54,712 nucleotides of DNA from assembly GCA_900318835.1 (NCBI GenBank), contig ONLW01000017.1, positions 1 to 54,712 on the forward strand, given 5' to 3'. How positions within the stretch are numbered: the first letter of the stretch is position 1; every line of letters begins with the position of its first letter. Origin of the DNA: an uncultured Bacteroidales bacterium (GTDB lineage: Bacteria; Bacteroidota; Bacteroidia; Bacteroidales; P3). The notes beneath the pieces are model-generated. The model searched no databases and was not told the DNA's origin. It was given only the letters and a program-made list of their open reading frames with translations. The position numbers and the translations under genes were made by a program. Shown here one piece after another: positions 4,530 to 54,634 of the stretch.

Positions 4530-4793
4530 ATCTCTGCAGAGAATGGCGCCTATCTCTGGAAAGAACGGCGCTTATCTTTGCAGAGAATGGCACTCATCTC
4601 TACGGAGAATAACTATCATCTCTCGGAAGAATAACTATCATCTCTCAGGAGAATAGCTATCATCTCTTAGGAATTCCTTAAGCATCTCTGCGCTCTTCCT
4701 TAACCATCTCTCCAGAGTTCCTTAACCAGTACTTTGGTACTCCTTAATCTGTTCTCCACTTCTCCTTAATCTGTACAGCATTACTCCTTAAAC
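4530..4793. repeat. Array of twelve degenerate 22-bp units around a central GGAATTCC
   Basis: Twelve consecutive 22-bp units start at 4530, 4552, 4574, 4596, 4618, 4640, 4662, 4684, 4706, 4728, 4750 and 4772 with almost no slippage. Most begin ATCTCT. Their second half changes from GAGAATGGCGCC-like on the left to TTCCTTAACC-like on the right. A palindrome AGGAATTCCT (4669-4678) lies near the middle, and GGAGAAT elements on the left mirror TCTCCTT elements on the right. Units contain small internal dyads such as CTCTGCAGAG and AGTAC...GTACT. There are no CRISPR-like unique spacers. The array lies in the presumed 5' leader of the kinase-like gene. Confidence 0.9.
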
Positions 4794-6732: not shown

Positions 6733-7980
6733 TTAAAGGGTAACGACTGCAACGGGTCTCAGGTGGTAGGAAACAGTAACAGAGGCACTAATCCAATAGT
6801 TCTCTCCACCGCCAAGTCTACGAAAGCCAAGACTATGGTCGCTTTCACGATAGAGGTAATCTTGTCCGTTAAGGGAGGCATCGTCAGACAAGAGTTTGGC
6901 TTCCACCAGTTGCATCTGCACTTGGGTAGGCACAGCCCAGCCGGTGACTTCAGCAACACCGCAGTTGGCCAAAGCTGGGGTAACATTGACATCGCTTCCC
7001 TCCACAATCGTCTCGTTAGGCGACATCAGCGTCACCTCATTTCCATCAACGGCAAGGACATAGCATCCCAGATAGGTAGAGCCTACTGTAGGTGCTCCAT
7101 TGTTCCCACCATTTCCACTACTTCCATTCTCATCGAAGGTAAACGAGATAGTTCGCTCGCCTACCCATGTTGCACCTGTGATGGTACCGCTGAGAGTCAC
7201 ACCAACAGCCTCGGTATAAGAGCCCACAATGCTGATGATATATCCAGCTGCCAACTCGTTATTACTGGAATAGGTATAGCTACTCGTGGTGCCGTCGATG
7301 GTAATATTCACGCTGATACTGGCCGGTTGACTACTAGGTGGCAACAGATGAGTCTCGTCTGTGGAAATCCACGTACGGTTGTCGGCTTGACGCGTAAGGG
7401 CGATGGTCTGCGTTCCGGTAGTGCCGTCATAGCTTCCATCAAGGATAAGCTCTTGATGCAGAGGCGCTATAGTAACGCTCACCGCTGTAGCGGCCACAGG
7501 AACATGGCTGATGGTTATGCCCTGTATCAGCATGGTCTTGCGCACCATACCGAGGGTGACGGTATTGGTACCGCCATCAACAAGAGACACCGTGGCAGAG
7601 GCGGTCATCAAGTCACCATGCAAGTGCCCACTTTGGAGCGCTACAATCGAAGAAGGTGTGGCACTGGCCTGGGTGGGCAGGGTGTAGTCATTATGCGACG
7701 CGCCACCGACAGCATAGACACTGTAGAGTCCTTCTTCTAGCGCAATGCTGAGCGTCTGCCCCTCGTCTCCAATGGTCTGCACCGCTTTGCATTCGTCACC
7801 TTGAAAGACATACACCTGCACCGGATAGCTCACCGTCTCGCCATCACCGCTGCCGGTCTTCACCTGCAATGTCGAATTGGGGGTCGATTCAGGGACGATA
7901 GTTGGCTCATCGTCCTTACTGCACGCGACAATTATCATCGCGGCAGACATCATACATGCGAACAATCTCCTTGTTTTCAT
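6733..7980 (-). CDS. FimB/Mfa2-like fimbrillin-family lipoprotein
   Basis: This is a predicted surface lipoprotein of 415 residues. The N-terminus MKTRRLFACMMSAAMIIVACSKDDEP is a lipoprotein signal with the lipobox VAC-S. Residues about 40-150 (SYPVQVYVFQGDECKAVQTI...EEGLYSVYAVGG) resemble the N-terminal beta-sandwich of FimB/Mfa2 and FimA-type fimbrial proteins. The middle is Thr/Ser-rich beta structure, then a Gly-Ser-Asn linker (ENGSSGNGGNNGAP). The C-terminal part (YLYRESDHSLGFRRLGGGENYWISASVTVSYHLRPVAVV) resembles surface beta modules. It could be a fimbrial anchor, a tip component or simply a fimbrillin-fold lipoprotein. It is odd to find it between lysS and repair/metabolic genes; it starts 39 bp after the preceding gene. 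Confidence 0.65.
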   Translation of the reverse strand: MKTRRLFACMMSAAMIIVACSKDDEPTIVPESTPNSTLQVKTGSGDGETVSYPVQVYVFQGDECKAVQTIGDEGQTLSIALEEGLYSVYAVGGASHNDYTLPTQASATPSSIVALQSGHLHGDLMTASATVSLVDGGTNTVTLGMVRKTMLIQGITISHVPVAATAVSVTIAPLHQELILDGSYDGTTGTQTIALTRQADNRTWISTDETHLLPPSSQPASISVNITIDGTTSSYTYSSNNELAAGYIISIVGSYTEAVGVTLSGTITGATWVGERTISFTFDENGSSGNGGNNGAPTVGSTYLGCYVLAVDGNEVTLMSPNETIVEGSDVNVTPALANCGVAEVTGWAVPTQVQMQLVEAKLLSDDASLNGQDYLYRESDHSLGFRRLGGGENYWISASVTVSYHLRPVAVVTL

Positions 7981-11120: not shown

Positions 11121-11219
11121 CACAACCAACTATAAACCAGCTACAAACGCCTTACCAACTCCTAACCAATTCCTACCATGGTAGGAGTTGATAGGGGGTT
11201 GATAGGGGGATGGTAGGTA
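11121..11219. repeat. 11-bp-period palindromic array, site A
   Basis: There are nine consecutive 11-bp units without slippage. The left arm has units such as ACCAACTCCTA and ACCAATTCCTA; the right arm has GTTGATAGGGG (twice) and GATGGTAGGTA. The arms meet in a perfect 16-bp palindrome TCCTACCATGGTAGGA (11171-11186). The array begins 8 bp past the NlpC/P60 stop codon on the minus strand. Confidence 0.9.
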
Positions 11220-11227
11220 AAAAATAC

Positions 11228-11788
11228 CTATTTCACCCTTCGGATGGAATAAAGGCGATGGGTGTATTTCTCGCCGTCAAAGATTCCTGTGGAGTCAAGC
11301 TTGTCAATCCGTACGAAACCAGATGAATGAACAATACGTCCGTCACCCATGCAGATACCCACATGGATAACGCGTCCCTCGGAGTTCTGGAAGAAAGCGA
11401 GGTCGTCGCGCTGCACGTCACACAGGCAGACCTCGTCGCCGCAGGTTACCTGCTGTGAGGCGTCGCGCGGAAGCCATATACTGTTGGCTTTGAAGCATAT
11501 CTGAGTGAGACCGGAACAGTCGATACCGCCCTTCGAGCGGCCACCCCAGAGATAGGGGGTTGCAAGGAAACAGCGCTCAGCCAAGTCGGCAGCGTTTTCG
11601 AATGGCACATACTGTTTATTGTCGACCCAACCCTCGTAACCATCATACTCGCATTTCACCAGCGACCATTTCTCCTGTCGATCAAGCACTTCCACCGTGT
11701 CACCGAGCACCAGTTGGTTCACCATCTCGGCTCTATCCGTGGCCTCCTTCCGCATCGGCACTGCCGACAAAAAACAATACCCTTTCAT
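11228..11788 (-). CDS. NlpC/P60 cysteine peptidase with SH3 domain
   Basis: This is a predicted peptidoglycan endopeptidase of the NlpC/P60 family, which cleaves gamma-D-Glu-diamino-acid links in cell-wall peptides. It has 186 residues. An SH3-like domain occupies about 1-62 (EMVNQLVLGDTVEVLDRQEKWSLVKCEYDGYEGWVDNKQYV). The catalytic domain follows: TPYLWGGRSKGGIDCSGL holds the catalytic Cys in DCSG (about residue 91), and RVIHVGICMGDGRIVHSSG supplies the His. No signal peptide is visible, so it may act on imported muropeptides in the cytoplasm, as YkfC-type enzymes do. It follows the DUF4294 gene by 32 bp. A palindromic array rather than a standard terminator lies directly after its stop. Confidence 0.9.
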   Translation of the reverse strand: MKGYCFLSAVPMRKEATDRAEMVNQLVLGDTVEVLDRQEKWSLVKCEYDGYEGWVDNKQYVPFENAADLAERCFLATPYLWGGRSKGGIDCSGLTQICFKANSIWLPRDASQQVTCGDEVCLCDVQRDDLAFFQNSEGRVIHVGICMGDGRIVHSSGFVRIDKLDSTGIFDGEKYTHRLYSIRRVK

Positions 11789-14678: not shown

Positions 14679-16021
14679 AAAAGGTAATCATATTAATATT
14701 GTTGAGCGTGGGCCTGACGGCCCACGCTCAGTATTGGTGGACAGGCTGGAGCCAGCAGACGGGGCTTGTCCTATGTATTCATCAGACCGATAGCAGCTAT
14801 GAGCTCTATAGTCCCCTACAAACCTCCGATCCCATCCCCGTCAGCAAATGGTCGCTTCAGGGAGACACCTTGCGTCTTGAGTGCGCTTCCATCGGATTCA
14901 AAACCACTCTTATAAAGCAAGATAGCATTTGGTCAGGCACGTGGCGACAAGGCATCATGAAAGAATCTATCACCTTCCATCCCTCCGATACCCTCTACCA
15001 ACTCCGTCGTCCACAAACCCCTCTCCCACCCTACCGATTCAATGAGGAAACCGTCACCACCGACTACACTGATTCCCAAGGCAATGCCATCCACCTCGAA
15101 GGTACTTTGAGTGTGCCGTACGGTTCGACCCTGCGGTATCCCTGCTTAATGCTGGTGAGCGGCAGCGGCCAGCAGAACCGCGACGAGGAGATCCTCTTCC
15201 ATAAGCCCTTTCTGGTTCTCGCCGACTATCTGGCCTCTCGCGGCATCGCCGTCCTCCGCTACGACGACCGCGGCATGGGCGCCAGCACAGGCCCTCTCGA
15301 CAGTGCTGACACCCGTCTCTTCGCCGAAGACGCCGAAGCCATGTTCAACGCATTGAAAGCCAACTCCCACATAGACCTCAACCGCCTCGGTATCGGTGGC
15401 CACAGCGAGGGTGGCGCTATCGCCCCCATGGTGGCCACAAGAAACAAAGACGTCAAGTTCATCGTTATGCTCGCCGGACAGGGCTGCACAGGCCTCGAAG
15501 TCCTTGTGCAACAGAACGAAGCGCTCTTCCGAGCCAAAGGGGTGAGCGACAGCCTCGTATCTATCCGCACACGCTGCATGCGCGACCTCTTCGGTCTGCC
15601 ACAAGAGAGCTCCGTAAAAGATTATCAAGTTGTTATCCTCCGCCAGACTTCCGGCCTCACCAAGGAGCAAATCGACAGCATCGACCTCCGCAAAGGCACC
15701 GCCTACACCCTCAAGCAGCAACTCGACAGCCGCTGGATGCGCACCTTCCTCTCCCTCGACCCAGCCGACTATCTCCCTAAGGTCCAGTGCCCTATCCTCG
15801 CCCTTCAAGGCTCAAAGGACTGCCAGGTGGTAGCCCTTCCCAACATTGCCAGAATCGCTGAGCTTTCAAGAAAAAACATTCATTATCGAATATTTACAGG
15901 ATTAAATCACCTATTCCAGCACTGTGCCACCGGTTCCCCCGACGAGTACGTTCAAATCGAGGAGACGTTTGCCCCTGAAGCCATGAAAGCCATTGCTGAC
16001 TGGATTCTGTCCCTTCCTTAG
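14675..16021 (+). CDS. Secreted alpha/beta hydrolase
   Basis: This is a predicted periplasmic esterase or peptidase-like enzyme. It begins with a signal peptide (MKKVIILILLSVGLTAHAQ). Residues about 20-115 form a beta-rich N-terminal domain, and the hydrolase fold starts at LEGTLSVPYGSTLRYPCLMLVSGSGQQNRDEE. The nucleophile elbow is GIGGHSEGGAIAP (Ser near residue 245), with the acid in ALQGSKDCQVV and the His in TGLNHLFQ. I chose the ATG at 14675, which overlaps the permease stop (ATGA), over a start 105 bp upstream because the signal peptide begins here. Coupling to the exporter suggests a shared substrate, perhaps a toxic ester, but that is inference. A palindromic array begins on the base after the stop codon. 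Confidence 0.88.
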   Translation: MKKVIILILLSVGLTAHAQYWWTGWSQQTGLVLCIHQTDSSYELYSPLQTSDPIPVSKWSLQGDTLRLECASIGFKTTLIKQDSIWSGTWRQGIMKESITFHPSDTLYQLRRPQTPLPPYRFNEETVTTDYTDSQGNAIHLEGTLSVPYGSTLRYPCLMLVSGSGQQNRDEEILFHKPFLVLADYLASRGIAVLRYDDRGMGASTGPLDSADTRLFAEDAEAMFNALKANSHIDLNRLGIGGHSEGGAIAPMVATRNKDVKFIVMLAGQGCTGLEVLVQQNEALFRAKGVSDSLVSIRTRCMRDLFGLPQESSVKDYQVVILRQTSGLTKEQIDSIDLRKGTAYTLKQQLDSRWMRTFLSLDPADYLPKVQCPILALQGSKDCQVVALPNIARIAELSRKNIHYRIFTGLNHLFQHCATGSPDEYVQIEETFAPEAMKAIADWILSLP

Positions 16022-16109
16022 CCCCATCCCCCACCCTACCATCTCCTACCATAGTAAGTCATGGGTAGGGGTTGGGTAGGAGATGGTAAAGAGTTGGGTA
16101 AGACTTGAT
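16022..16109. repeat. 11-bp-period palindromic array, site B
   Basis: There are eight 11-bp units. The left arm has ACCCTACCATC and TCCTACCATAG; the right arm has TAGGGGTTGGG, TAGGAGATGGT, AAAGAGTTGGG and TAAGACTTGAT. It begins directly after the hydrolase stop codon. Confidence 0.88.
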
Positions 16110-19803: not shown

Positions 19804-21249
19804 GTGAGGCGTATCCCATTGGTACCCGTAGCTTTGGCCTTGATGGCTGGCATAGCGGTTTGTCACTGGACAACCCTGCCGCTACACCTATGGATTCTCC
19901 TTACGGCAACCGCCGCAATAGCAAGTGGCTCACTCTTGTATTTCAACAAGGGAAAGCATCCCACATCCACCGCCATCGCACTGGCCATCACCGTCTTCGC
20001 CATTGGTGTACTCCGTTGTCTTCCCGACGACCCGCACCATGACACCAGCCACTGGAGCCATTCCTCAGCCATGTCTCCCAAACACCCATCCTACCTAACC
20101 CTCAGGCTAAACGAGACACCCATTCCCCGGGAGCGTAGCTATCGGGCAACGGCAAAGCTAGAGTGCATTGGAAATCAAAAAACAAACGGCAATTTATGCC
20201 TCTATCTCCGTTGCGACAGTACCGCCGCCTTGCGCTACGGCGACCGCCTGCTGGCCCATGGCTATGTCGACCGGGAGAAAGGTTCACTCTACCTCACCTC
20301 CGCCCACTACCTCCTCACCGGCCGCGACAGCACCTCGCTCCGTGCACGATGCGAAGGAGTCAGGATGAAGCTATTGCAGCGCATGCAGGAGGGTCCTTTG
20401 GAGCCCCGCTATCGTGGCATCGCGGAAGCATTGACCCTGGGTTGGCGTGGCGATCTGGAGCCCAATCTGCAGACACAGTTCCGCGATGCCGGCATCATGC
20501 ACCTGCTGTGTGTCAGCGGATTGCATGTAGGACTGCTGGCCACCATCGTCGGCTGGCTACTCTTCTTTGTCGGAAAAGAACGTCGCGGCCGCATCATCCG
20601 AGGAAGCATCCAGCTGCTAACCATCTGGGTTTTTGCAGCCCTGACAGGTCTAGCTCCCGCCACGACGAGGGCCGCCTTGATGTTCAGTCTATTCATTATC
20701 AGCCACATGATGGCACGACGAACCGACTCACTCAACCTACTGGCCGCCGCGGCCATTGTCATGCTGGCCGTCGACCCCATGCTGCTCTTCAACGTCGGTT
20801 GGCAGCTATCGTTCAGCGCGGTAGCGGGCATCCTGCTCATGCGACCAGCCATCAATCTCAGCCACAATATCCTATGGCAACTGGCCGTCGTCAGCCTCGC
20901 CGCCACCCTAGCCACACTCCCAGTCTCCCTTGCCACCTTCCACCAAGTGCAGCCTTACTTTCTGATAGCCAACATTGTGATAATCCCTTTAGCACCCCTG
21001 ATGTTAGAGCTCGCCCTCCTCTACATGGCCGTTCCCTGCGGCATCACCGCCTTCGTTGTGAAATGGCCGCTGTGGTATGGCGACTGGCTTACCGATGGAA
21101 TCTCGCGGTTGCCCGGTTCCGTGATAACAGTTGCGGAACCTTCCAGTTGTACTATAGCATTATTTTCAGCGGCAACTATTTTTATATTAATAACAATAAA
21201 TATAGTGCTTCGGCGTTATAACAGCAAAAAAGACAAACGCTCATGCTGA
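19804..21249 (+). CDS. ComEC/Rec2 family competence channel protein
   Basis: This is a polytopic inner-membrane protein. ComEC forms the channel through which single-stranded DNA enters during natural transformation. The 481 residues comprise N-terminal helices, a DUF4131-like soluble region (about 90-190), and the competence domain starting GIAEALTLGWRGDLEPNLQTQFRDAGIMHLLCVSGLHVGLL, whose D/GI.HLL..SGLHV core is diagnostic. The later helices contain TGLAPATTRAALMF. There is no C-terminal metallo-beta-lactamase domain, as is usual for short Bacteroidetes versions. It starts at GTG 4 bp after the nitroreductase and overlaps the next gene by 7 bp. The ComEA-like gene nearby supports an uptake role. 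Confidence 0.9.
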   Translation: MRRIPLVPVALALMAGIAVCHWTTLPLHLWILLTATAAIASGSLLYFNKGKHPTSTAIALAITVFAIGVLRCLPDDPHHDTSHWSHSSAMSPKHPSYLTLRLNETPIPRERSYRATAKLECIGNQKTNGNLCLYLRCDSTAALRYGDRLLAHGYVDREKGSLYLTSAHYLLTGRDSTSLRARCEGVRMKLLQRMQEGPLEPRYRGIAEALTLGWRGDLEPNLQTQFRDAGIMHLLCVSGLHVGLLATIVGWLLFFVGKERRGRIIRGSIQLLTIWVFAALTGLAPATTRAALMFSLFIISHMMARRTDSLNLLAAAAIVMLAVDPMLLFNVGWQLSFSAVAGILLMRPAINLSHNILWQLAVVSLAATLATLPVSLATFHQVQPYFLIANIVIIPLAPLMLELALLYMAVPCGITAFVVKWPLWYGDWLTDGISRLPGSVITVAEPSSCTIALFSAATIFILITINIVLRRYNSKKDKRSC

Positions 21250-24279: not shown

Positions 24280-24312
24280 CAAACTGCTAATCAATAGTCT
24301 CTAGACACCAAG

Positions 24313-24408
24313 TCTTACCCAACTCTTTACCAACTCCTACCCAACCCCTTCCCATGTCCTACCAGGGTAGGAGTTGGTAGGGTGCTGACAGGTGGATGAC
24401 AGGTTGAG
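24313..24408. repeat. 11-bp-period palindromic array, site C
   Basis: Eight 11-bp units plus a partial one fill nearly the whole gap between two convergent stop codons. The left arm is TCTTACCCAAC, TCTTTACCAAC, TCCTACCCAAC, CCCTTCCCATG; the centre is TCCTACCAGGGTAGGA (24357-24372); the right arm has GTTGGTAGGGT, GCTGACAGGTG, GATGACAGGTT. It ends 1 bp before the AGCS stop. Confidence 0.9.
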
Positions 24409-26089: not shown

Positions 26090-27796
26090 ATGTCCAACAC
26101 GATAGTGAAAAAGACAAAACGGAAGATTGCCGAGTATACTGCCGCAATGACGACCCGTCTATGGCAGGGTTTGAAAAGCCATCCCGTAGAGCTACTTGTG
26201 CTGATTCACGCCACGGTGGCGGCGATTCTGAAAGGCGACCCCTGGTGGCAACTGCCGGCCTACTATGCGGCTTTTGCCGTGGTGCTGGCACTGTGCCTGT
26301 CGTTCCTCCGCAGCAGGCGGTGGACGGCGGTATCCTACTGGGCCGTGTTGCTGCTCTATGCGCTGACGGCCTTGCTGCCGAAGGCATGGAACAGCACGAG
26401 CGAATACTGGCTCCTGACGGCCCTGCTGCCTGCGGTGTACCTGCTGGCACGCAGCAGCTTCAACGCACGCTTCTTCAGCCTGATACGTTCCACAGTGGTA
26501 GCCGTGGGCGTTGGTCTTTTGACATTCATACTGCTAGAAATCATCAATTATACCATCTGCGATCTGTTCAGGATAAAGGGTTATACGACATATACGACAG
26601 AAGGCTATCTGGCGACGTTTTGTTATGTGTTGCTCACCCCAATGGTATTCATTGGCATGGAGAGCGGACATAACGAGATGAAGGCCAGCAAACTGGAAGA
26701 GGCGCTGGTCAACTGGCTGCTCACCTCGGCACTACTCATTTACAACATAATATTGTATGTCTACCTAGCGGTGATTGTGATACGCTGGGACCTGCCCAAT
26801 GGGTCGGTAGCCACCATGGTGTCGCTGTTCATTGGTGCGGCTGTGGCGGTGCGCTGGCTACGGCCGATGCTGAAGAGACAACCCTTGGAATGGTATTTCC
26901 GCTGGTTCGGATTGATAGCGCTGCCGCTGGTGGTGCTGTTCTGGGTGGCCATAGGCTACCGCATCGGCCAGTATGGCCTCACCATCGACCGCTGTCTCCT
27001 GGTGGCCACAGGGGCGCTGATGACGACCTTTGCCCTCTTGTCGCTCTTCAAGACCACCCGCGGAAGCTATTGGTTCCTGGTCGCCTACACCGTCGCCGGA
27101 TTGGTGCTGGCCGTGGGAGGTCCGCTGTCGGCACGCCAGCTGTCGCTGCGCTCGCAGACCGCCGTCATCGAGCAGTATGCCGAGAAGCTGGGAATCCTGG
27201 CCGACGATGGCACCCTGGCCTTGCCGTCGCGCAACGAGGCCGACACTGTCTACCGCCGTGAGCACCGCGCCGTCTACCAGGCCATGAACTATATCGAGAA
27301 CGACCTCTCCGACACCGTTTCCGTGCAGCAGCGCTTCGGGGTCTCCAAGGCGGAATACCTCAATCACCTATCGAGGAACACCACCGTCTATGCCACCGCC
27401 TGGAGGGCGGAACGCTACGACTATCCGGAAGAGTCCGAAATTGAGCCTGTCGCCAAGCAGATATGGGTGAATCCCGTTGAGTCTGTCGAGATTTCAGATA
27501 TCAGAGGCTACAGCAGGCTTTATTCCCATATAAGTGTCACCGACGGGAAAATAAGGCTTGGAGACACCGTCATAGAAGCCGATTCAGTGCTTGCCGTGCA
27601 GCTGGCCAAGATAGGATACACACTGGAGAGCAACCTCGACCAACAAAAAGTGGAGAAAAACGAGACAGAACTCTGCACCTACCGCTCGCCCAATGGGCGG
27701 ATACTGATGATTTTCGAATTCTTCAACATCGAGTGCGACTCCGTCAGCAACCACATGTCCTCCGGCGAGATAGTGTGTGCATTGATAAAAGACTAA
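26090..27796 (+). CDS. DUF4153 family membrane protein
   Basis: This polytopic inner-membrane protein of 568 residues belongs to the DUF4153 group common in Bacteroidetes; the function is unknown. Residues about 30-340 hold ten or more hydrophobic helices (WWQLPAYYAAFAVVLALCLSFL, AVSYWAVLLLYALTALL, STVVAVGVGLLTFILLEIINY and others). From about residue 350 the protein is soluble and polar: RRSQTAV-like helices, then a mixed domain with ESEIEPVAKQIWVNPVESVEISDIRGYSRLY. The start ATG is 23 bp after a strong -7 element. The frame is open far upstream, but that part is antisense to the AGCS gene and is not coding. It heads an operon of five plus-strand genes. Confidence 0.8.
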   Translation: MSNTIVKKTKRKIAEYTAAMTTRLWQGLKSHPVELLVLIHATVAAILKGDPWWQLPAYYAAFAVVLALCLSFLRSRRWTAVSYWAVLLLYALTALLPKAWNSTSEYWLLTALLPAVYLLARSSFNARFFSLIRSTVVAVGVGLLTFILLEIINYTICDLFRIKGYTTYTTEGYLATFCYVLLTPMVFIGMESGHNEMKASKLEEALVNWLLTSALLIYNIILYVYLAVIVIRWDLPNGSVATMVSLFIGAAVAVRWLRPMLKRQPLEWYFRWFGLIALPLVVLFWVAIGYRIGQYGLTIDRCLLVATGALMTTFALLSLFKTTRGSYWFLVAYTVAGLVLAVGGPLSARQLSLRSQTAVIEQYAEKLGILADDGTLALPSRNEADTVYRREHRAVYQAMNYIENDLSDTVSVQQRFGVSKAEYLNHLSRNTTVYATAWRAERYDYPEESEIEPVAKQIWVNPVESVEISDIRGYSRLYSHISVTDGKIRLGDTVIEADSVLAVQLAKIGYTLESNLDQQKVEKNETELCTYRSPNGRILMIFEFFNIECDSVSNHMSSGEIVCALIKD

Positions 27797-30411: not shown

Positions 30412-30444
30412 CCGATTGCCACCCGCTATCCCCCAACAGCAATA

Positions 30445-30521
30445 TTCCTACAACATTTCGACAATAGTTCAACGATGCGGCATCGTTGAAGTATCGTTGA
30501 AGTATCGTTGAAATGCCGTCA
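30445..30521. repeat. 11-bp-period palindromic array, site G (divergent sequence)
   Basis: Seven 11-bp units: TTCCTACAACA, TTTCGACAATA, GTTCAACGATG, CGGCATCGTTG, AAGTATCGTTG (twice), AAATGCCGTCA. The centre is TTCAACGATGC G GCATCGTTGAA. The unit sequence differs from sites A-E but the architecture is the same. It ends 12 bp before the dus stop. Confidence 0.88.
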
Positions 30522-33030: not shown

Positions 33031-34140
33031 TCACTCACTATAGTTGTGGTCAACCACAACAATCACCTGCATGTCGGGTACCAAAGGCTGCAACTCGGCA
33101 GTTAGCGTTCGAACGAGGGCAGCGTCATCGTGGACGCTGATGTCGGGCACTACGTCAACGGAGAGCATCCTATCCTTCTCGGAGTAGTAAAGGCCATGGA
33201 CCTGCACTATCTCCCTGTGTTCCGCTAAACGATGCACAACGGCACTCTGTAACTCGGCAACGGGTCCCTTACCGATGGCATTAGCGTAGATACCTACTGT
33301 CATAATGATGCCATAACGCTCGTACATAAGGACGGAGATGCGCCGTGTGAGGCCATGGATGTCGTGGGCGCTCATGGTGTCGTCGACGCCAATATGCAGC
33401 GAGCCAATCATCACGTCGGGTCCATAGTTGTGAAGGATGAGGTCGAAGACTCCATGTACCCCCTCCTGTTCGGCCACATCGTGCTTGATCTGGCGCACCA
33501 GCTCTGGAGAGACATTCATGCCCAGCAACTGGTTGATGGGGGATGCCAACATTTCGAAGCCTGCCTTGACGATGAACAGCGAGATGAGGGCACCAAGGTA
33601 ACCGTCGATGGAGATGTTCCACAGCAGCATGATACCCGCTGAGACGAGTGTAGCCAGGGTGATGAGGGCATCGAAGAGGGCGTCGGAACCCGATGCCACG
33701 AGGGCGTCGCTTTCCAGTTGCTCACCTTTGTGCTTCACATAACGTCCCAGCAGCAGTTTAACGACGATGGCCACAATGATGACCACCAATGTGACACTTG
33801 TATAGCTGGGTGTAGTGGGTTCAAAGATCTTTTTCACCGACTCGATCAAGGAGGTGACACCGGTGGCCAACACAATGAGGGAGATGACGATGGCGCTGAA
33901 ATACTCTACACGGCCGAAGCCGAAGGGGTGCTGGCGGTCAGCAGGGCGCTGCGAGAGTTTAGTACCCACGATAGTGATAACGCTCGAGAGGGCATCGCTG
34001 AGGTTGTTGACAGCATCCATCACAATTGCCACACTACCGGCAACCAGGCCCACCACGGCCTTGAATCCTGCCAGTAGCACATTGGTGCCGATGCCTATCC
34101 AACTAGTCCTAATAATCTGTGAATTTCGTTCTTGTTTCAT
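33031..34140 (-). CDS. Cation diffusion facilitator with extended C-terminus
   Basis: This inner-membrane divalent-cation exporter has about 369 residues. Helix II carries AIVMDAVNNLSDALSSVITI and helix V SDALVASGSDALFDALITLA, with Asp in place of some His ligands (DxxxD type), typical of Mn/Fe-type CDFs rather than Zn transporters. The sequence RPADRQHPFGFGRVEYFSA is a conserved loop. After the normal cytoplasmic domain there is an extra stretch of about 70 residues, including YYSEKDRMLSVDVVPDISVHDDAALVRTLTAEL. I choose ATG 34140, 1 bp after the serine hydrolase stop; 34167 is also possible. It is in the cupin-to-dus operon. Confidence 0.88.
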   Translation of the reverse strand: MKQERNSQIIRTSWIGIGTNVLLAGFKAVVGLVAGSVAIVMDAVNNLSDALSSVITIVGTKLSQRPADRQHPFGFGRVEYFSAIVISLIVLATGVTSLIESVKKIFEPTTPSYTSVTLVVIIVAIVVKLLLGRYVKHKGEQLESDALVASGSDALFDALITLATLVSAGIMLLWNISIDGYLGALISLFIVKAGFEMLASPINQLLGMNVSPELVRQIKHDVAEQEGVHGVFDLILHNYGPDVMIGSLHIGVDDTMSAHDIHGLTRRISVLMYERYGIIMTVGIYANAIGKGPVAELQSAVVHRLAEHREIVQVHGLYYSEKDRMLSVDVVPDISVHDDAALVRTLTAELQPLVPDMQVIVVVDHNYSE

Positions 34141-34141
34141 A

Positions 34142-35323
34142 TCATTGCTTTTTCTTCGGCCAAACATCGCTCATCTGCTCAAACAGAACAGGAATACGTG
34201 TGTAGCCATGGTTGTGCAGTCCAATTCTCACCATGACAAGGTTCTTGTAGGGGTTGACGTAAAGCACCTGCTCATAGATGCCGAGGGCGTAATAGCCCGA
34301 ATACTCGGGCCGGATGTAACCATCATAGTTGATGTTGTACCAGTTGAAATGATAGCCGTGATCACTGGTGTCGCAGTCAACGGTTTGGCGTATCCATTCT
34401 TCGCTCACGATGCGGCAGCCATTCCACATTCCATTATTAAGATAGAGGCAGCCAATCTTGGCGAGGTCGTGGATAGTGGTCGAGATGCCGCCGAAAGTGT
34501 GGGCGTTGTCGTGCTTGCGGCTGTCGATGTTGACAACGGCGGGATGTTCCATGCCGAGCGGCTTCCATACCCGCTCGCTGAGGTAGTCGGCGAAGCGCTT
34601 GCCAGAGGCACGCTCAATGACCACCCCGAGAATAGCCGACGTCATGCTCTCGTAGCGGAACTGGGTCCCTGGCTCACAACGGAACTTCAGCCCCTGAATC
34701 TGCTTCTGGATGTTATGCCCGTAGTTCAGCTTGGCCATTGCGCTAAGGTTCTTCAATCCCTCCCAGTTGACATCGTAGGTGTCGTCAAAGTCGAGTCCGC
34801 TACGCATGTCGAGAAGGTGGCGGATGGTAAGTTTCTTCCACATCGGGTCTTTCCTTTTCAGCTCGGGCAAATAGTCGGTGACGGGGTCGTCGATGCTGCG
34901 GATGTAGCCGTCGTCAACTGCGATGCCGCACATGAGCGAGGTGATGGACTTGGAAACGGAGAAGATGGTGGCCATGCGGTCGGCCGAGAAGTTGCCCCAG
35001 TAGCGCTCGTAAACGATGCTGTCGTCATGTATGACAAGCAGTCCCTGCGTGGTGCTTTCCTTGGTGAACGCCTCCAGAAAGGTCATGTATTCGCAGGGAT
35101 GCGCCGCGTTGGCGAAATGCGTGGTGTCGATCCAGTAGGCTCTCTTCCCAATGGGGAATTGGAAAGTGTACTCGCCATTTGCAATGGTGTCGACCTCGCG
35201 CTGCTCGAAACTGAAGATATTGGGGCCATTCTTACCGTCGGTCTTCAAGCCTCTGACAATGGAGCACGACGGCATTGCCAAATCGCAGATGGCGAGTAGT
35301 GCGACAAATATGGTTCTTTTCAT
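34142..35323 (-). CDS. Serine hydrolase, beta-lactamase/class C-like
   Basis: This is an exported serine hydrolase of the penicillin-binding-protein-like family (393 residues). The N-terminus MKRTIFVALLAICDLAMPSCS is a signal, with a possible lipobox ending PSC. The catalytic motif SVSK (Ser near 127) matches SxxK, and the YES motif of QFRYESMTSAILG corresponds to YxN/YxS. The third motif is HxG-like near IGLHNHG. Members include esterases, D-amino-acid peptidases and class C beta-lactamases; the 6-aminohexanoate-dimer-hydrolase subgroup is closest by eye. Antibiotic hydrolysis is not implied. The cupin gene precedes it by 9 bp. Confidence 0.9.
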   Translation of the reverse strand: MKRTIFVALLAICDLAMPSCSIVRGLKTDGKNGPNIFSFEQREVDTIANGEYTFQFPIGKRAYWIDTTHFANAAHPCEYMTFLEAFTKESTTQGLLVIHDDSIVYERYWGNFSADRMATIFSVSKSITSLMCGIAVDDGYIRSIDDPVTDYLPELKRKDPMWKKLTIRHLLDMRSGLDFDDTYDVNWEGLKNLSAMAKLNYGHNIQKQIQGLKFRCEPGTQFRYESMTSAILGVVIERASGKRFADYLSERVWKPLGMEHPAVVNIDSRKHDNAHTFGGISTTIHDLAKIGCLYLNNGMWNGCRIVSEEWIRQTVDCDTSDHGYHFNWYNINYDGYIRPEYSGYYALGIYEQVLYVNPYKNLVMVRIGLHNHGYTRIPVLFEQMSDVWPKKKQ

Positions 35324-35332
35324 CTTGGGATG

Positions 35333-35926
35333 TTATTTTATCGGTATCTCGGAATGCGGCACGGAGAGCGGCAGGCCTTTCTGCGAGAGGTAGAACATAT
35401 AGAGGACGACAGGCTTCTCGCCGCGGTTCTCGCCGTGGTGGACAGTGCCGACCATCTCGACGATGGCCTCGCCCTCATGGACGACCTTCTCGGTGCCATC
35501 CACAGCCACGATGGTCAACTCGCCCTGCACCAGCACGCCGTGATTCATCGCGTCGTGGTGGTGCCAGTCGAGCTTACTCCCCTGCGGAATGACATATTTC
35601 ACCGCCACCAGCTCGGGCCGTCCCTGCGGGTAGTCGGGCAGCGCGGCGCCGTCCCAGCTTTGCGAGGTACGGAAAAGCTCCGTCGTCTCCACCTGCTTTA
35701 GCATCTCGCAGATGGGGTCTTCGCGGAGAATCTTTGGGGCGGACTTGCCGGCAAGCACCAGCACCTTTTTGCCATTACGGTAGATATGCAGCTGGCGCGA
35801 GCGCACTACGGCGGTCAGCTCGGGGTCGTCCTGCAGGGCAAGCCATATCCGGTGGTACTCGCCATTCTCATCGAACAACTTCCGCTGTAGATAGGAGCAC
35901 ATATTGGTTGTATCGATAGTCTTCAT
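35333..35926 (-). CDS. Cupin-domain protein
   Basis: This is a cytoplasmic protein of about 197 residues. The C-terminal half is a cupin barrel: WHHHDAMNHGVLVQGELTIVAVDGTEKVVHEGEAIVEMVGTVHHGENRGEKPVVLYMFY. His residues in WHHHDAMNHG and HHGENRG would bind a metal. The N-terminal half (about 1-80) is a helical region with a small beta segment (RQLHIYRNGKKVLVLAG). The function is unknown; such cupins may be sensors, isomerases or dioxygenases. I use ATG 35926 (MKTIDTT). It is the first gene of the operon. Minus-strand TATCTTTG at 35957-35950 is the likely -7 element, with a weak -33. Confidence 0.84.
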   Translation of the reverse strand: MKTIDTTNMCSYLQRKLFDENGEYHRIWLALQDDPELTAVVRSRQLHIYRNGKKVLVLAGKSAPKILREDPICEMLKQVETTELFRTSQSWDGAALPDYPQGRPELVAVKYVIPQGSKLDWHHHDAMNHGVLVQGELTIVAVDGTEKVVHEGEAIVEMVGTVHHGENRGEKPVVLYMFYLSQKGLPLSVPHSEIPIK

Positions 35927-35949
35927 CTTGTGTGTCATTTTTCAAAGTG

Positions 35950-36016
35950 CAAAGATACGAAGAAAATCCAAACTTGGAAAAAAAATTGCCCATGTCAAGG
36001 AAAACATGTATTTTTG
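35950..36016. promoter_or_regulatory. Divergent promoters of the cupin operon and lipoprotein gene
   Basis: Minus-strand -7 TATCTTTG lies at 35957-35950; its -33 is weak. Plus-strand ATTG (35985-35988), 20 bp and TATTTTTG (36009-36016) precede the lipoprotein start by 26 bp. Confidence 0.65.
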
Positions 36017-36042
36017 CACCATCATTCAAAAAAAACAACAAG

Positions 36043-36648
36043 ATGAAGAACAATATCACTTTTATTGCTTTTGCAGCATTAATGGCATTGTTTGGATGTG
36101 GACAGAACCGGGACGAGGCAAAGCATTCCGCGTTCGACTGGGATAATAACGACAAAATTGAATACACCATCGACTACAAAGTTCGTTTTTCTGCCGACCA
36201 CGATAGCACCATGCTACTAACAGCAGAAAGCAATTATGGCACCATAAATGTCGTCAGTGTAGAATCAGAAAACCTAATAGGCACTGATGGAAAACTGGTA
36301 AAGAACACCTTTATTATACTTGAAGACTCTATTCCCATGAGCAAAAGCATTATCTTGCAACGTGGAGGCCTGTCATATTCAGGTGAAAACCTTGGGTATA
36401 TTCATAATCAAGTCGTCGGAAGCGACGATATGGTTGAGATAAGAACACTGGACAGCGACAATTACACGATGTATTCCATCCGCGACAACATGTTCTTCGG
36501 CCCGAACGACGAGCAGGGTTTCACTATCGGCGAAGGCCAGCGATTCTCCGTTGTCCTACCCGTCATGACAAAACAGCAATATCCCAAAGAAGAAGAAATC
36601 CACACAATCAAGATCGATTTCGATATAATAAGTGGCAAAACAGAATAA
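36043..36648 (+). CDS. Small lipoprotein of unknown function
   Basis: I do not recognise the family. The 201 residues start MKNNITFIAFAALMALFGCGQNRDE, a lipoprotein signal with lipobox LFGC. The mature protein is acidic with alternating hydrophobic residues, suggesting beta structure: EYTIDYKVRFSADHDSTMLLTAESNYGTINVVSVE and FTIGEGQRFSVVLPVMTKQQYPKEEEIHTIKIDFD. I start at ATG 36043, since the open frame upstream crosses the promoter. Its base composition is more AT-rich than that of its neighbours, which may point to recent acquisition or simply low expression. A strong terminator follows. Confidence 0.75.
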   Translation: MKNNITFIAFAALMALFGCGQNRDEAKHSAFDWDNNDKIEYTIDYKVRFSADHDSTMLLTAESNYGTINVVSVESENLIGTDGKLVKNTFIILEDSIPMSKSIILQRGGLSYSGENLGYIHNQVVGSDDMVEIRTLDSDNYTMYSIRDNMFFGPNDEQGFTIGEGQRFSVVLPVMTKQQYPKEEEIHTIKIDFDIISGKTE

Positions 36649-36672
36649 CCCAACAGAACACCTACCAATAAA

Positions 36673-36699
36673 TAAAGGGCGCCCGATGGGCGCCCTTTA
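36673..36699. terminator. Bidirectional terminator
   Basis: AAAGGGCGCC (36674-36683) pairs with GGCGCCCTTT (36689-36698) around CGATG, an 11-bp stem including the flanking T-A pair. It separates the lipoprotein gene from the convergent hydrogenase operon. Confidence 0.8.
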
Positions 36700-36720
36700 C
36701 TGTTGACAATCCTTGTGGGA

Positions 36721-37197
36721 TTATTTGTACTCGGCGATAATGCCGGGGACCATGTCGGGGGTGAGGCGGCCGTAGACCTTGTCGCCAATCATGGCGACGG
36801 GGGCGAGACCGCAGGCACCGACGCAACGGAGGGTGTTGAGGGAGAATTTGCCGTCGGGGGTGCACTTGCCGACCGGGATGTTCAGGTTGCGCTGGAAGGC
36901 ATCCAGGACTTTCTCGGCGCCACGGACGTAGCAGGCGGTACCGAGGCAGATGTCGATGGGGTGCTCGCCCTTGGGCTCCATGGTGAAGAAGCTGTAGAAG
37001 GAGACGATGCCATAGACCTTAGCCACGGGGATGTTCAACTCGTGGGCGACGACTTCCTGAACCTCGGCGGGGAGGTAGCCGAAACGGCCCTGCACCTGGT
37101 GGAGGACGTTGATGACCTCACCGGCACGGTTACCAAAGCTCTTGCAGATGTCTTTGATAACGTTGATCTTTTCTTCGGAAATTTTTATATTTGCCAT
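36721..37197 (-). CDS. hydC: NADH-linked [FeFe] hydrogenase subunit HydC (NuoE-like)
   Basis: This thioredoxin-like [2Fe-2S] subunit of 158 residues relays electrons between the flavin subunit and the hydrogenase core. The N-terminal helices (VIKDICKSFGNRAGEVINVLHQVQGRFGYLPAEVQEVVA) and the cluster motif ICLGTACYVRGAEKV...TLRCVGACGLAPVAMIG match NuoE. Four Cys are present: two in CLGTAC and two in CVGAC. In bifurcating hydrogenases HydA-HydB-HydC act together. It is the last of four cotranscribed genes, 18 bp after hydA. A strong terminator lies downstream. Confidence 0.93.
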   Translation of the reverse strand: MANIKISEEKINVIKDICKSFGNRAGEVINVLHQVQGRFGYLPAEVQEVVAHELNIPVAKVYGIVSFYSFFTMEPKGEHPIDICLGTACYVRGAEKVLDAFQRNLNIPVGKCTPDGKFSLNTLRCVGACGLAPVAMIGDKVYGRLTPDMVPGIIAEYK

Positions 37198-42265: not shown

Positions 42266-42324
42266 TCTTCTACTTAACATAATCTAAAAAAGAGACCTAA
42301 TAATCAGACCAATAAGACACCATG

Positions 42325-42368
42325 CCTTACTCTTCTCTTACTCTTCCCTTACTCTACCTTTACTTTAG
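42325..42368. repeat. 11-bp-period array, site F (one arm)
   Basis: Four units: CCTTACTCTTC, TCTTACTCTTC, CCTTACTCTAC, CTTTACTTTAG. The mirror arm is weak or lost. It lies 59 bp after the ZIP stop codon. Confidence 0.75.
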
Positions 42369-42438
42369 TCTTGGTTTTGAAAGAGTTGCGAAATCCTTGG
42401 AAAGGAGATAAAATTGTATAATATTGAAAAAGACCCCT

Positions 42439-43459: not shown

Positions 43460-43984
43460 CTAATTCATCAGCCGACTCTCGCCCCAGGTGTACTGCGGGT
43501 AGGCTTTCCTGAGGTCGTTGGCGGAGCCGTCGACGGTGCTGCCGCCGCTGGTGGCGAAAACGTTGAGCACCTTGCCGCTCAGGTCATGCGCCTCGATGAA
43601 GGTGTTGACGATGGTGGGAGCGGTGTACCACCACACGGGAAAGCCAATCCACACGGTGTCGTACTGTGCGATGTTCTCGCAGCGGCCCTTGATGGCGGGA
43701 CGCGAGGACTTGTCCTTCATCTCGATAGTTGAGCGCGAGGACTTGTCGCGCCAGTCGAGGTCGGCAGCGGTGTAAGGCTGCTCAGGGGTGATTTCATAGA
43801 GGTCGGCACCCAGCTCTTTGGCGAGCTCCTGTGCGGCGGCCTTTGTGGTGCCCGTGGCCGAGAAATAAACTACTAAGGTCTTCATATTGCTTGATTGTTT
43901 GATTGTCTGATTGTTTGAGTTGTTCTGTGCGCAGGCGCCCAGCATCAGGCAGCATGCGGCTAATAATAAAACAATGTTTTTCAT
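43460..43984 (-). CDS. Flavodoxin family lipoprotein
   Basis: The flavodoxin domain starts MKTLVVYFSATGTTKAAAQELAKELGADLYEI, with the FMN phosphate loop SATGTTK, and continues IWIGFPVWWYTAPTIVNTF and FATSGGSTVDGS. Ahead of it lies a lipoprotein signal, MKNIVLLLAACCLMLGACAQNN (lipobox GAC), and a linker NNSNNQTIKQSSN. The linker is encoded by the dispersed CAATCA repeat (43888-43925). A second ATG exactly at the flavodoxin domain start (43885) could yield a cytoplasmic form, so dual localisation is possible. FMN use on the periplasmic side would be unusual. It is 4 bp after the SMR gene. Total length 174 residues. Confidence 0.85.
   Translation of the reverse strand: MKNIVLLLAACCLMLGACAQNNSNNQTIKQSSNMKTLVVYFSATGTTKAAAQELAKELGADLYEITPEQPYTAADLDWRDKSSRSTIEMKDKSSRPAIKGRCENIAQYDTVWIGFPVWWYTAPTIVNTFIEAHDLSGKVLNVFATSGGSTVDGSANDLRKAYPQYTWGESRLMN
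43888..43925. repeat. Dispersed CAATCA-type repeat inside the flavodoxin gene
   Basis: On the minus strand it reads ACTCAAACAATCAGACAATC followed by AAACAATCAAGCAAT, an 8-bp tandem (AATCARAC). It is in frame and encodes SNNQTIKQSSN. Related copies are at 6290-6355 and 52345-52428. Confidence 0.7.
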
Positions 43985-47160: not shown

Positions 47161-47248
47161 CACCCTATCACCGCCTACCACAGTGGGGGATGGGTAGGTG
47201 TTGGGTAGGAGATGGGTAAGTGTTGGGTAAGAGTTGATAGGTAGATAC
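47161..47248. repeat. 11-bp-period palindromic array, site D
   Basis: Eight units: CACCCTATCAC, CGCCTACCACA, GTGGGGGATGG, GTAGGTGTTGG, GTAGGAGATGG, GTAAGTGTTGG, GTAAGAGTTGA, TAGGTAGATAC. The left arm is short, the right arm long. Unlike the others it lies between two divergent gene starts. Confidence 0.88.
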
Positions 47249-52344: not shown

Positions 52345-52428
52345 TTTGATTGTTTGATTGTCTGATTGCCTGATTGATGAGTATTTGACTGCGTGAGCAC
52401 TCAAGCATCAACACATTCAAGCATTAAT
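52345..52428. repeat. Dispersed CAATCA-type repeat before the ATPase gene
   Basis: On the minus strand it runs through AATGCTTGAATGTGTTGATG, CTTGAGTGCTCACGCAGTC and then four CAATCAG/A units. It is the longest of three copies in the window and fills the gap between the DRTGG and ATPase genes. Confidence 0.75.
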
Positions 52429-54320: not shown

Positions 54321-54397
54321 TATCAACTCTTACCCATCCCTTACCCATGCCTTTGCCACCCCTTACCCATCGCCCACCTCGGTAGGAGATGGTGGGG
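54321..54397. repeat. 11-bp-period palindromic array, site E
   Basis: Seven units: ATCAACTCTTA, CCCATCCCTTA, CCCATGCCTTT, GCCACCCCTTA, CCCATCGCCCA, CCTCGGTAGGA, GATGGTGGGGT. The left arm is long, the right arm short. It lies in the long non-coding stretch. Confidence 0.87.
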
Positions 54398-54564: not shown

Positions 54565-54634
54565 AACGGCGAATTAAACGGATTGAACGAATCGCCACGC
54601 AGGTCAATTCGCCTAATTCGTAAAATTCGCCGTC
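54565..54634. repeat. Inverted repeat AACGGCGAATT...AATTCGCCGT
   Basis: AACGGCGAATT (54565-54575) faces AATTCGCCGTC (about 54624-54634), 10 of 11 positions paired. It is the same pair as at 1401-1457, and again lies shortly before a start codon. Confidence 0.6.

Follow-up and report, generated by a model that had tools for sequence, protein, structure and literature searches.

Evenly spaced intergenic arrays with an 11-bp period and inverted arms in a little-known group of rumen Bacteroidales

REP/BIME repeats come with an associated Y1 (RAYT) transposase, and OmpR/PhoB-type sites are 11-bp direct repeats to which OmpR-type proteins bind head to tail, with 11 bp for each protomer. The helix may come close to 11 bp per turn where the strand bias between purines and pyrimidines is strong. 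Supercoiling domains of about 10 kb are believed to divide bacterial chromosomes, and we know of no evenly spaced DNA mark of such domains. As given in the available text of three sources, the BrickBuilt elements of Porphyromonas gingivalis are 23-nt direct repeats inside a MITE, with a leader and a tail and 19 copies in one strain (PMC4596501); the Rho utilisation (rut) site of RhoTermPredict is 78 nt long, with C over G and cytosines every 11-13 nt, and is followed by a pause hairpin (PMC6407284); and the E. coli gyrase motif is symmetric and about 130 bp long, with two 47-bp flanks and a GC periodicity of 10.75 bp (PMC6379681). Here, we describe intergenic arrays with an exact period of 11 bp. 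Titles and abstract starts in the open-access literature held no description that we recognised as these arrays, and they appear to be a new type of chromosome landmark. A sequence-only reading had named BrickBuilt as the nearest thing it could recall, which holds as a loose analogy, given that both consist of tandem short repeats in dispersed intergenic copies in Bacteroidales species. However, the 23-nt direct repeats inside a MITE in the available BrickBuilt text (PMC4596501) differ from the arrays, which have a period of 11 bp, inverted arms about a fixed dyad and an even spacing at about 90 per Mb, and membership of BrickBuilt was therefore rejected.

The window, that is, the whole stretch of DNA analysed, comprises 54,712 nucleotides and belongs to a draft genome of 43 contigs (G000), of which 46 percent of bases were read. 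It contains seven arrays:

Array A, 11121..11219, no strand assigned: a 6-bp spacer (11176-11181) separates a pyrimidine arm (11143-11175) from a purine arm (11182-11214), with more distant left units reaching 11121; on the 3' side of a minus-strand NlpC/P60 gene whose stop is at 11228, and upstream of the gene for a class II (D, K, N) tRNA synthetase.
Array B, 16022..16109, no strand assigned: pyrimidine arm 16027-16048, spacer 16049-16054, purine arm 16055-16109; between convergent alpha/beta hydrolase-like and radical SAM genes.
Array C, 24300..24408, no strand assigned: pyrimidine arm 24307-24361, spacer 24362-24367, purine arm 24368-24400; between convergent genes for an M14 peptidase with a Por sorting tail and a Na:alanine symporter.
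Array G, 30444..30521, no strand assigned: unit ATCGTTGAAGT, unrelated to the main family, with inverted arms 30444-30478 and 30480-30514; between convergent genes, one without a Pfam match and one for dihydrouridine synthase.
Array F, 42308..42387, plus strand: CTTACTCTTCC-type units with the period and no clear dyad; 43 bp beyond the end (42265) of a plus-strand ZIP transporter gene.
Array D, 47161..47248, no strand assigned: purine arm 47184-47238, left side short and degenerate; between divergent subtilase and AAA helicase genes.
Array E, 54321..54397, no strand assigned: pyrimidine arm 54322-54376, right side short; near the window end.

The sequence-only reading had claimed an exact 11-bp period at these seven sites, and counting matches in 44-base windows at lags 4 to 44 bears this out: all seven were found at lag 11 once the cut was lowered to 29. 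At a cut of at least 31 of 44 matches, lag 11 gave six separate places, lags 22 and 44 gave one each, and all other lags from 4 to 44 gave none, as did 20 dinucleotide shuffles of the window. The mirror-image arms of the same reading are in fact inverted repeats, with two arms around one centre in A, B and C. A dyad at which the arms meet, claimed for most sites, is present in these three and, with an unrelated unit, in G, but F has no good dyad. With a position matrix, D scored by its right-arm run alone and E by its left-arm run alone. An Rfam search of the window at the gathering score returned two tRNAs and no match to an array. The genome-wide excess of the period on which the sequence-only reading depended was present in the samples examined. 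In 702 kb of usable G000 sequence, lag 11 had 25 places at the cut of 31 compared with 8 at the next best lag; two of the places at every lag are short contigs of N, which were left out thereafter. Altogether, 97 intergenic 11-bp arrays were found in 1.07 Mb of G000 (about 90 per Mb).

Arrays of the main family share one design. An 11-bp position matrix trained on the G000 sample (consensus ACCAACTCCTA) located 56 elements in the 702 kb, nine edge arrays being left out of the count: 44 were two-armed, 6 had a left run only and 6 a right run only. All 44 two-armed elements have pyrimidine-rich units on the left, a 6-bp spacer and purine-rich units on the right. The dyad core of the G000 lineage is ACCAACTCCTACC-NN-GGTAGGAGTTGGT, with a variable central dinucleotide. 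Among 171 centred elements pooled from all fetched loci, a set in which both inner unit pairs were required and to which many loci were brought by the exact core, left units of different elements become less alike with distance from the centre, agreeing at 10.07, 7.86, 6.66, 5.34, 3.90 and finally 3.41 of 11 positions. Conservation is thus highest at the centre of the array and not at its ends. Adjacent units within an arm are more alike than permutation predicts.

With up to three mismatches allowed, the core pattern matches G000 132 times in the forward and 130 times in the reverse direction, many of these matches being one dyad read on both strands, and a reversed-pattern control gave none in the same genome. 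A second genome, G009 (95 percent complete), has 123 forward and 119 reverse matches. Across the genus, core matches occur in 25 of 120 genomes, 9 of which have at least 18 per strand, and 95 genomes have none; in other genera of the family only 2 of 70 genomes have any, with one or two hits each, and 16 genomes from other families of the order have no core match. The exact core is found in Bacteroidales assemblies that include, among the matches listed, RUG11699, RUG156 and UBA2939, several of them of rumen origin by name, and the arrays belong to a little-known group of rumen bacteria.

The period extends further than the core. An 11-bp array (cut 29) is present in 14 of 32 loci, each 7 kb or longer, from congeners in which core matches are few or absent; at any one of the other lags between 8 and 17, the same cut gives 0-6 of these loci (coding DNA included). 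Among 13 loci of at least 7 kb from other families, none has a lag-11 array, compared with 0-2 at other lags (coding DNA included). In 120 kb of the congener G132, which has 0 core matches, there are 12 arrays outside called genes at 30 or more of 44 matches, compared with none at lags 7-10 and 12-21 and three at lag 22. At a threshold of 9 of 11 positions, single linkage groups the consensus units of 125 arrays into 24 clusters; a shuffled pair reaches this level by chance in 1.3 percent of cases, and small clusters may join by chance. The largest cluster holds 93 arrays, namely the main family of G000 and G009 plus 8 arrays of G132, and 18 of the 24 clusters are single arrays. Among the congeners, the 11-bp period is kept while the sequence of the unit changes. 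One locus shows a CCT/CCC-to-CCG change that recurs in successive units and in the facing arm. In sister genera, two 20-kb stretches had no 11-bp arrays and a 3-kb piece gave one weak lag-11 hit at 28. A sister-genus locus (L254) has a 22-bp periodicity of hairpin-like look at 6957-7038 and 15850-15933, with no 11-bp signal, possibly a related design.

The arrays are intergenic: called genes (from our own script rather than a published gene finder) contain none of the 171 centred elements, 15 edge arrays being left out, and none of 50 arrays on five G000 stretches. We then compared intergenic regions roomy enough to hold an element, excluding 70 bp beside each start and leaving out regions under set lengths. 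In G000 and G009 together, 30 of 54 divergent regions hold an element, whereas tandem regions do so in 28 of 140 cases and convergent regions in 7 of 32 (divergent versus rest, p 1.8e-6, in two genomes that share positions by descent). The excess is seen in each genome alone: in G000, elements occupy 20 of 37 divergent regions versus 27 of 101 others (p 0.004), and in G009 they occupy 10 of 17 versus 8 of 71 (p 9e-5).

Spacing is more even than random intergenic placement predicts. The main set comprises 50 arrays of all units on the five G000 stretches (504 kb, 45 gaps), and its gap CV is 0.435, compared with 0.83-0.86 under six nulls. Only 2 of the 45 gaps are below 4.5 kb, compared with about 15 expected (14.5-15.8), and no draw of 1000 was as extreme in any of the six nulls. 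Gaps of this size are likewise scarce on other G000 stretches (0 of 19, 6.3-7.6 expected), in G132 (0 of 11, 3.6-3.9 expected, P at most 0.005) and in G009 (1 of 11, 3.0-5.0 expected, P 0.007-0.13), the last of which is not independent of G000. The gap CV of G132 (0.67) is not significant, and the result for other congeners (1 of 6, 2.2-3.3 expected) is mostly not significant. The closest pair found is on G000 contig C23 (about 33350-36900), in which a main-family array lies 422 bp from an unrelated 11-bp array (CTAGAGTATGG type); the pair adjoins six called tandem genes of about 425 bp each.

We tentatively prefer, at less than even confidence, to read the array as double-stranded DNA that acts as a chromosomal boundary site. 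A putative protein would bind the dyad core as a head-to-head pair, further protomers would join outward, head to tail, one per 11-bp unit and thus one per turn, and the resulting nucleoprotein block of about 80-120 bp would insulate neighbouring transcription units or supercoiling domains. The binding, the oligomerisation and the insulation are inferred. The divergent excess, the even spacing, the dyad core with its variable central dinucleotide and the lack of maintained long pairing between the arms all favour the DNA alternative of the sequence-only reading, namely phased protein sites. The spacer and arm order fixed in all two-armed elements and the outward decay of likeness support the same reading. 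OmpR/PhoB-type sites resemble the proposed arrangement in having one protomer per 11 bp, head to tail, but the arrays have several units on each side of a dyad and occur at very many loci. Less securely, 11-bp-period arrays, often with a dyad, could form a genus-wide chromosome ruler that stands about every 8-9 kb, most often between divergent genes, and partitions the chromosome into domains while the unit sequence turns over; we consider this possible but speculative. If the arrays do mark domains, it becomes possible to test which protein acts at the boundary, what rule sets the spacing and how transcription is affected. Some observations fit the preferred reading poorly: the 24 unit clusters among 125 arrays are awkward for one sequence-specific protein, and the strong C-over-G bias and its agreement with transcription would suit a reader of RNA better.

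That bias could mean that the arrays act as RNA or as an orientation-dependent block. In the pooled left arms of the main family, C makes up 37 percent and G 8.8 percent, and YC recurs in phase at 11 nt. They could therefore be two-way Rho utilisation sites, in which a transcript from either side would meet the C-rich, G-poor arm first, YC every 11 nt would load the Rho hexamer and the dyad would serve as the pause hairpin. We find this explanation doubtful. G000 encodes a Rho RNA-binding domain, and the C over G, the cytosine spacing of 11-13 nt and the hairpin that follows agree with the rut site in the available text of PMC6407284, although the arrays differ from that description in being exact repeats, two-way and most frequent between divergent genes, the setting with the least need for a terminator. 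In tandem regions, 42 of 57 arrays have their C-over-G strand in line with the direction of transcription, six arrays of weak skew being left out (p 0.0002 versus the pooled base rate; G000 25 of 34, G132 5 of 5, other congeners 6 of 7, G009 6 of 11). Array-free tandem regions agree in 60 of 132 cases in G000, 26 of 67 in G009, 64 of 113 in other congeners and 12 of 16 in G132, so that the 5 of 5 of G132 alone says little; G132 and the other congeners together reach 11 of 12 (p 0.016 versus the array-free base rate). Pyrimidine richness, with no skew filter, gives a weaker agreement of 42 of 63 (p 0.006), and the stronger arm lies upstream in only 39 of 71 tandem main-family elements (p 0.24). 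The phased YC does not exceed what composition predicts, as column-shuffled arrays have at least as many YC columns in phase, and Rho loading does not predict even spacing. Arrays also do not replace intrinsic terminators, which in tandem regions are commoner with an array (22 of 49) than without (32 of 125; p 0.018) and in convergent and divergent regions show no significant difference. A simple terminator is weakened by the divergent excess and these co-occurring terminators, and the arrays seem to mark transcription-unit borders rather than to replace terminators. The pairing that a short pause hairpin would use is kept in units 1 and 2 only: complementarity of left and right partners is 10.12 at unit 1 and 8.05 at unit 2, compared with 9.90 and 7.68 when partners are permuted among arrays, falls below permutation at unit 3 (6.10 versus 6.51) and shows no clear difference from it farther out. 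Base pairing between the arms is not maintained past unit 2, which counts against the long RNA hairpin with a mismatch at every turn that the sequence-only reading had offered as a ligand for an RNA-binding protein or RNase. Folding both strands of the seven sites against 100 shuffles each likewise gave this hairpin no support, given that only A (z -4.0, -2.1) and G (z -6.2, -5.3) fold clearly better on both strands, B is mixed (z -1.0, -2.6) and C, D, E and F are unremarkable. If the arrays are Rho sites instead of boundaries, they would provide a very regular natural example of the Rho-loading spacing rule, and either way a period kept without its sequence is an unusual feature.

The preferred DNA boundary site has also to be weighed against a mobile origin, in which the arrays would be relics of a MITE- or REP-like, non-autonomous repeat that spread in the lineage without host function, its copies being kept apart by target immunity or by recombinational loss between close neighbours. 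This is unlikely in our view, although copy number is high and lineage-specific, as the genus counts above show, and some outer motifs are in phase with the units (AAGAATCA, up to one mismatch, in 16 of 29 cases and GTTATCAG in 27 of 43 in one phase of 11; GTTGCAAA, among others, kept no phase). Exclusion is also stricter within the main family (0 of 48 gaps below 4.5 kb, a scarcity that supports the boundary site as well) than where another unit family is involved (2 of 17). Presence differs in a few orthologous regions, with G132 (7 regions with an array in neither genome, 0 in both, 1 in G000 only and 1 in G132 only), with other congeners (19 neither, 1 both, 1 G000 only) and among loci fetched by the core pattern, a biased set (57 neither, 19 both, 3 discordant). 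At the junction orthologous to that of array B in locus L168, no array was seen and both genes abut. However, presence agrees in 22 of 22 orthologous regions of G000 and G009 (16 neither, 6 both, 0 discordant), which supports a boundary site, and an earlier comparison with other cut-offs gave 26 neither, 5 both and none discordant. Four discordant ortholog pairs viewed by eye showed no clean empty site or target duplication (in the viewing of ortholog pairs, 6 of 23 were left out and the rest shown in part). With more distant species array positions are not clearly shared, which disfavours the boundary site. The protein encoded at window positions 26090-27796, taken as an orthology anchor, had no match in 8 genomes. 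At one orthologous position, G000 and G125 seemed to carry different arrays, but the intergenic DNA there was not alignable, and the case was discounted.

Conservation that peaks at the centre rather than the ends is also contrary to a mobile relic, as is a core that evolves somewhat more slowly than the flanking DNA. Across 13 ortholog pairs, a set biased by the requirement of a recognisable core and in which 10 pairs can come from pattern-fetched loci, identity is 0.876 in the core and declines to 0.493 by unit 6, compared with 0.741 (aligned columns) or 0.645 (all columns) in flanking DNA; paralogs fall from 0.863 to 0.296. Five pairs with G009 gave 0.836 for the core, 0.455 at unit 6 and 0.714 (aligned) or 0.635 (all) for the flanks. 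The core is hence more conserved than its flanks, moderately so in unbiased pairs, all pairs having required a recognisable core. Core identity above the flanks supports a boundary site, but its moderate size, weaker in pairs not chosen by their core, lowered the weight we give to that reading and raised that of a mobile relic. Like REP/BIME palindromes, of which genomes hold more than 100 dispersed copies according to the available text of PMC2817692, the cores are numerous (132/130 matches in G000), but the arrays form a strict, evenly spaced 11-bp ladder without dependence on a Y1 transposase: G000 has two Y1_Tnp matches and G009 none, despite nearly as many copies, which disfavours REP/RAYT. 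A phage or plasmid origin was rejected, given that viral contigs hold no exact copy of the core pattern, and plasmids and phages no match to array A. Size, symmetry and spacing suggested gyrase-like wrapping, in which the arrays would be strong gyrase sites, symmetric and wrapped, with two flanks phased at one turn; the available text of PMC6379681 and PMC12393610 describes sites of about 130 bp that are likewise symmetric, with flanks periodic near one turn. The arrays, however, lack the 11-bp GC modulation, their period being one of sequence repeats, and the 11-bp GC harmonic is below that of column-shuffled arrays in four of four groups (G000 0.64 versus 1.23, G132 0.87 versus 1.32, G009 0.96 versus 1.29, other congeners 0.93 versus 1.12), which makes gyrase sites very improbable. 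The REP/RAYT, BrickBuilt and gyrase-motif readings each fail on a feature examined, the MITE and terminator readings lack support, and an explanation outside those considered is improbable.

Other features of the window are recorded for completeness. A 22-bp-period array (twice 11) of about 12 units occupies 4530-4791, between cytidylate kinase-like and uracil-DNA glycosylase-like genes, at a distance of about 6.5 kb from array A that fits even spacing. An inverted repeat with 27-nt arms, 78 percent complementary and 14 nt apart, lies at 54566-54633, about 170 bp past array E. Short 8-bp tandem repeats are present at 43886-43924 and 52347-52376 (ATTGTTTG, TGATTGTC), and the gene at 19804-21249 has a Pfam Competence (ComEC-type) domain.
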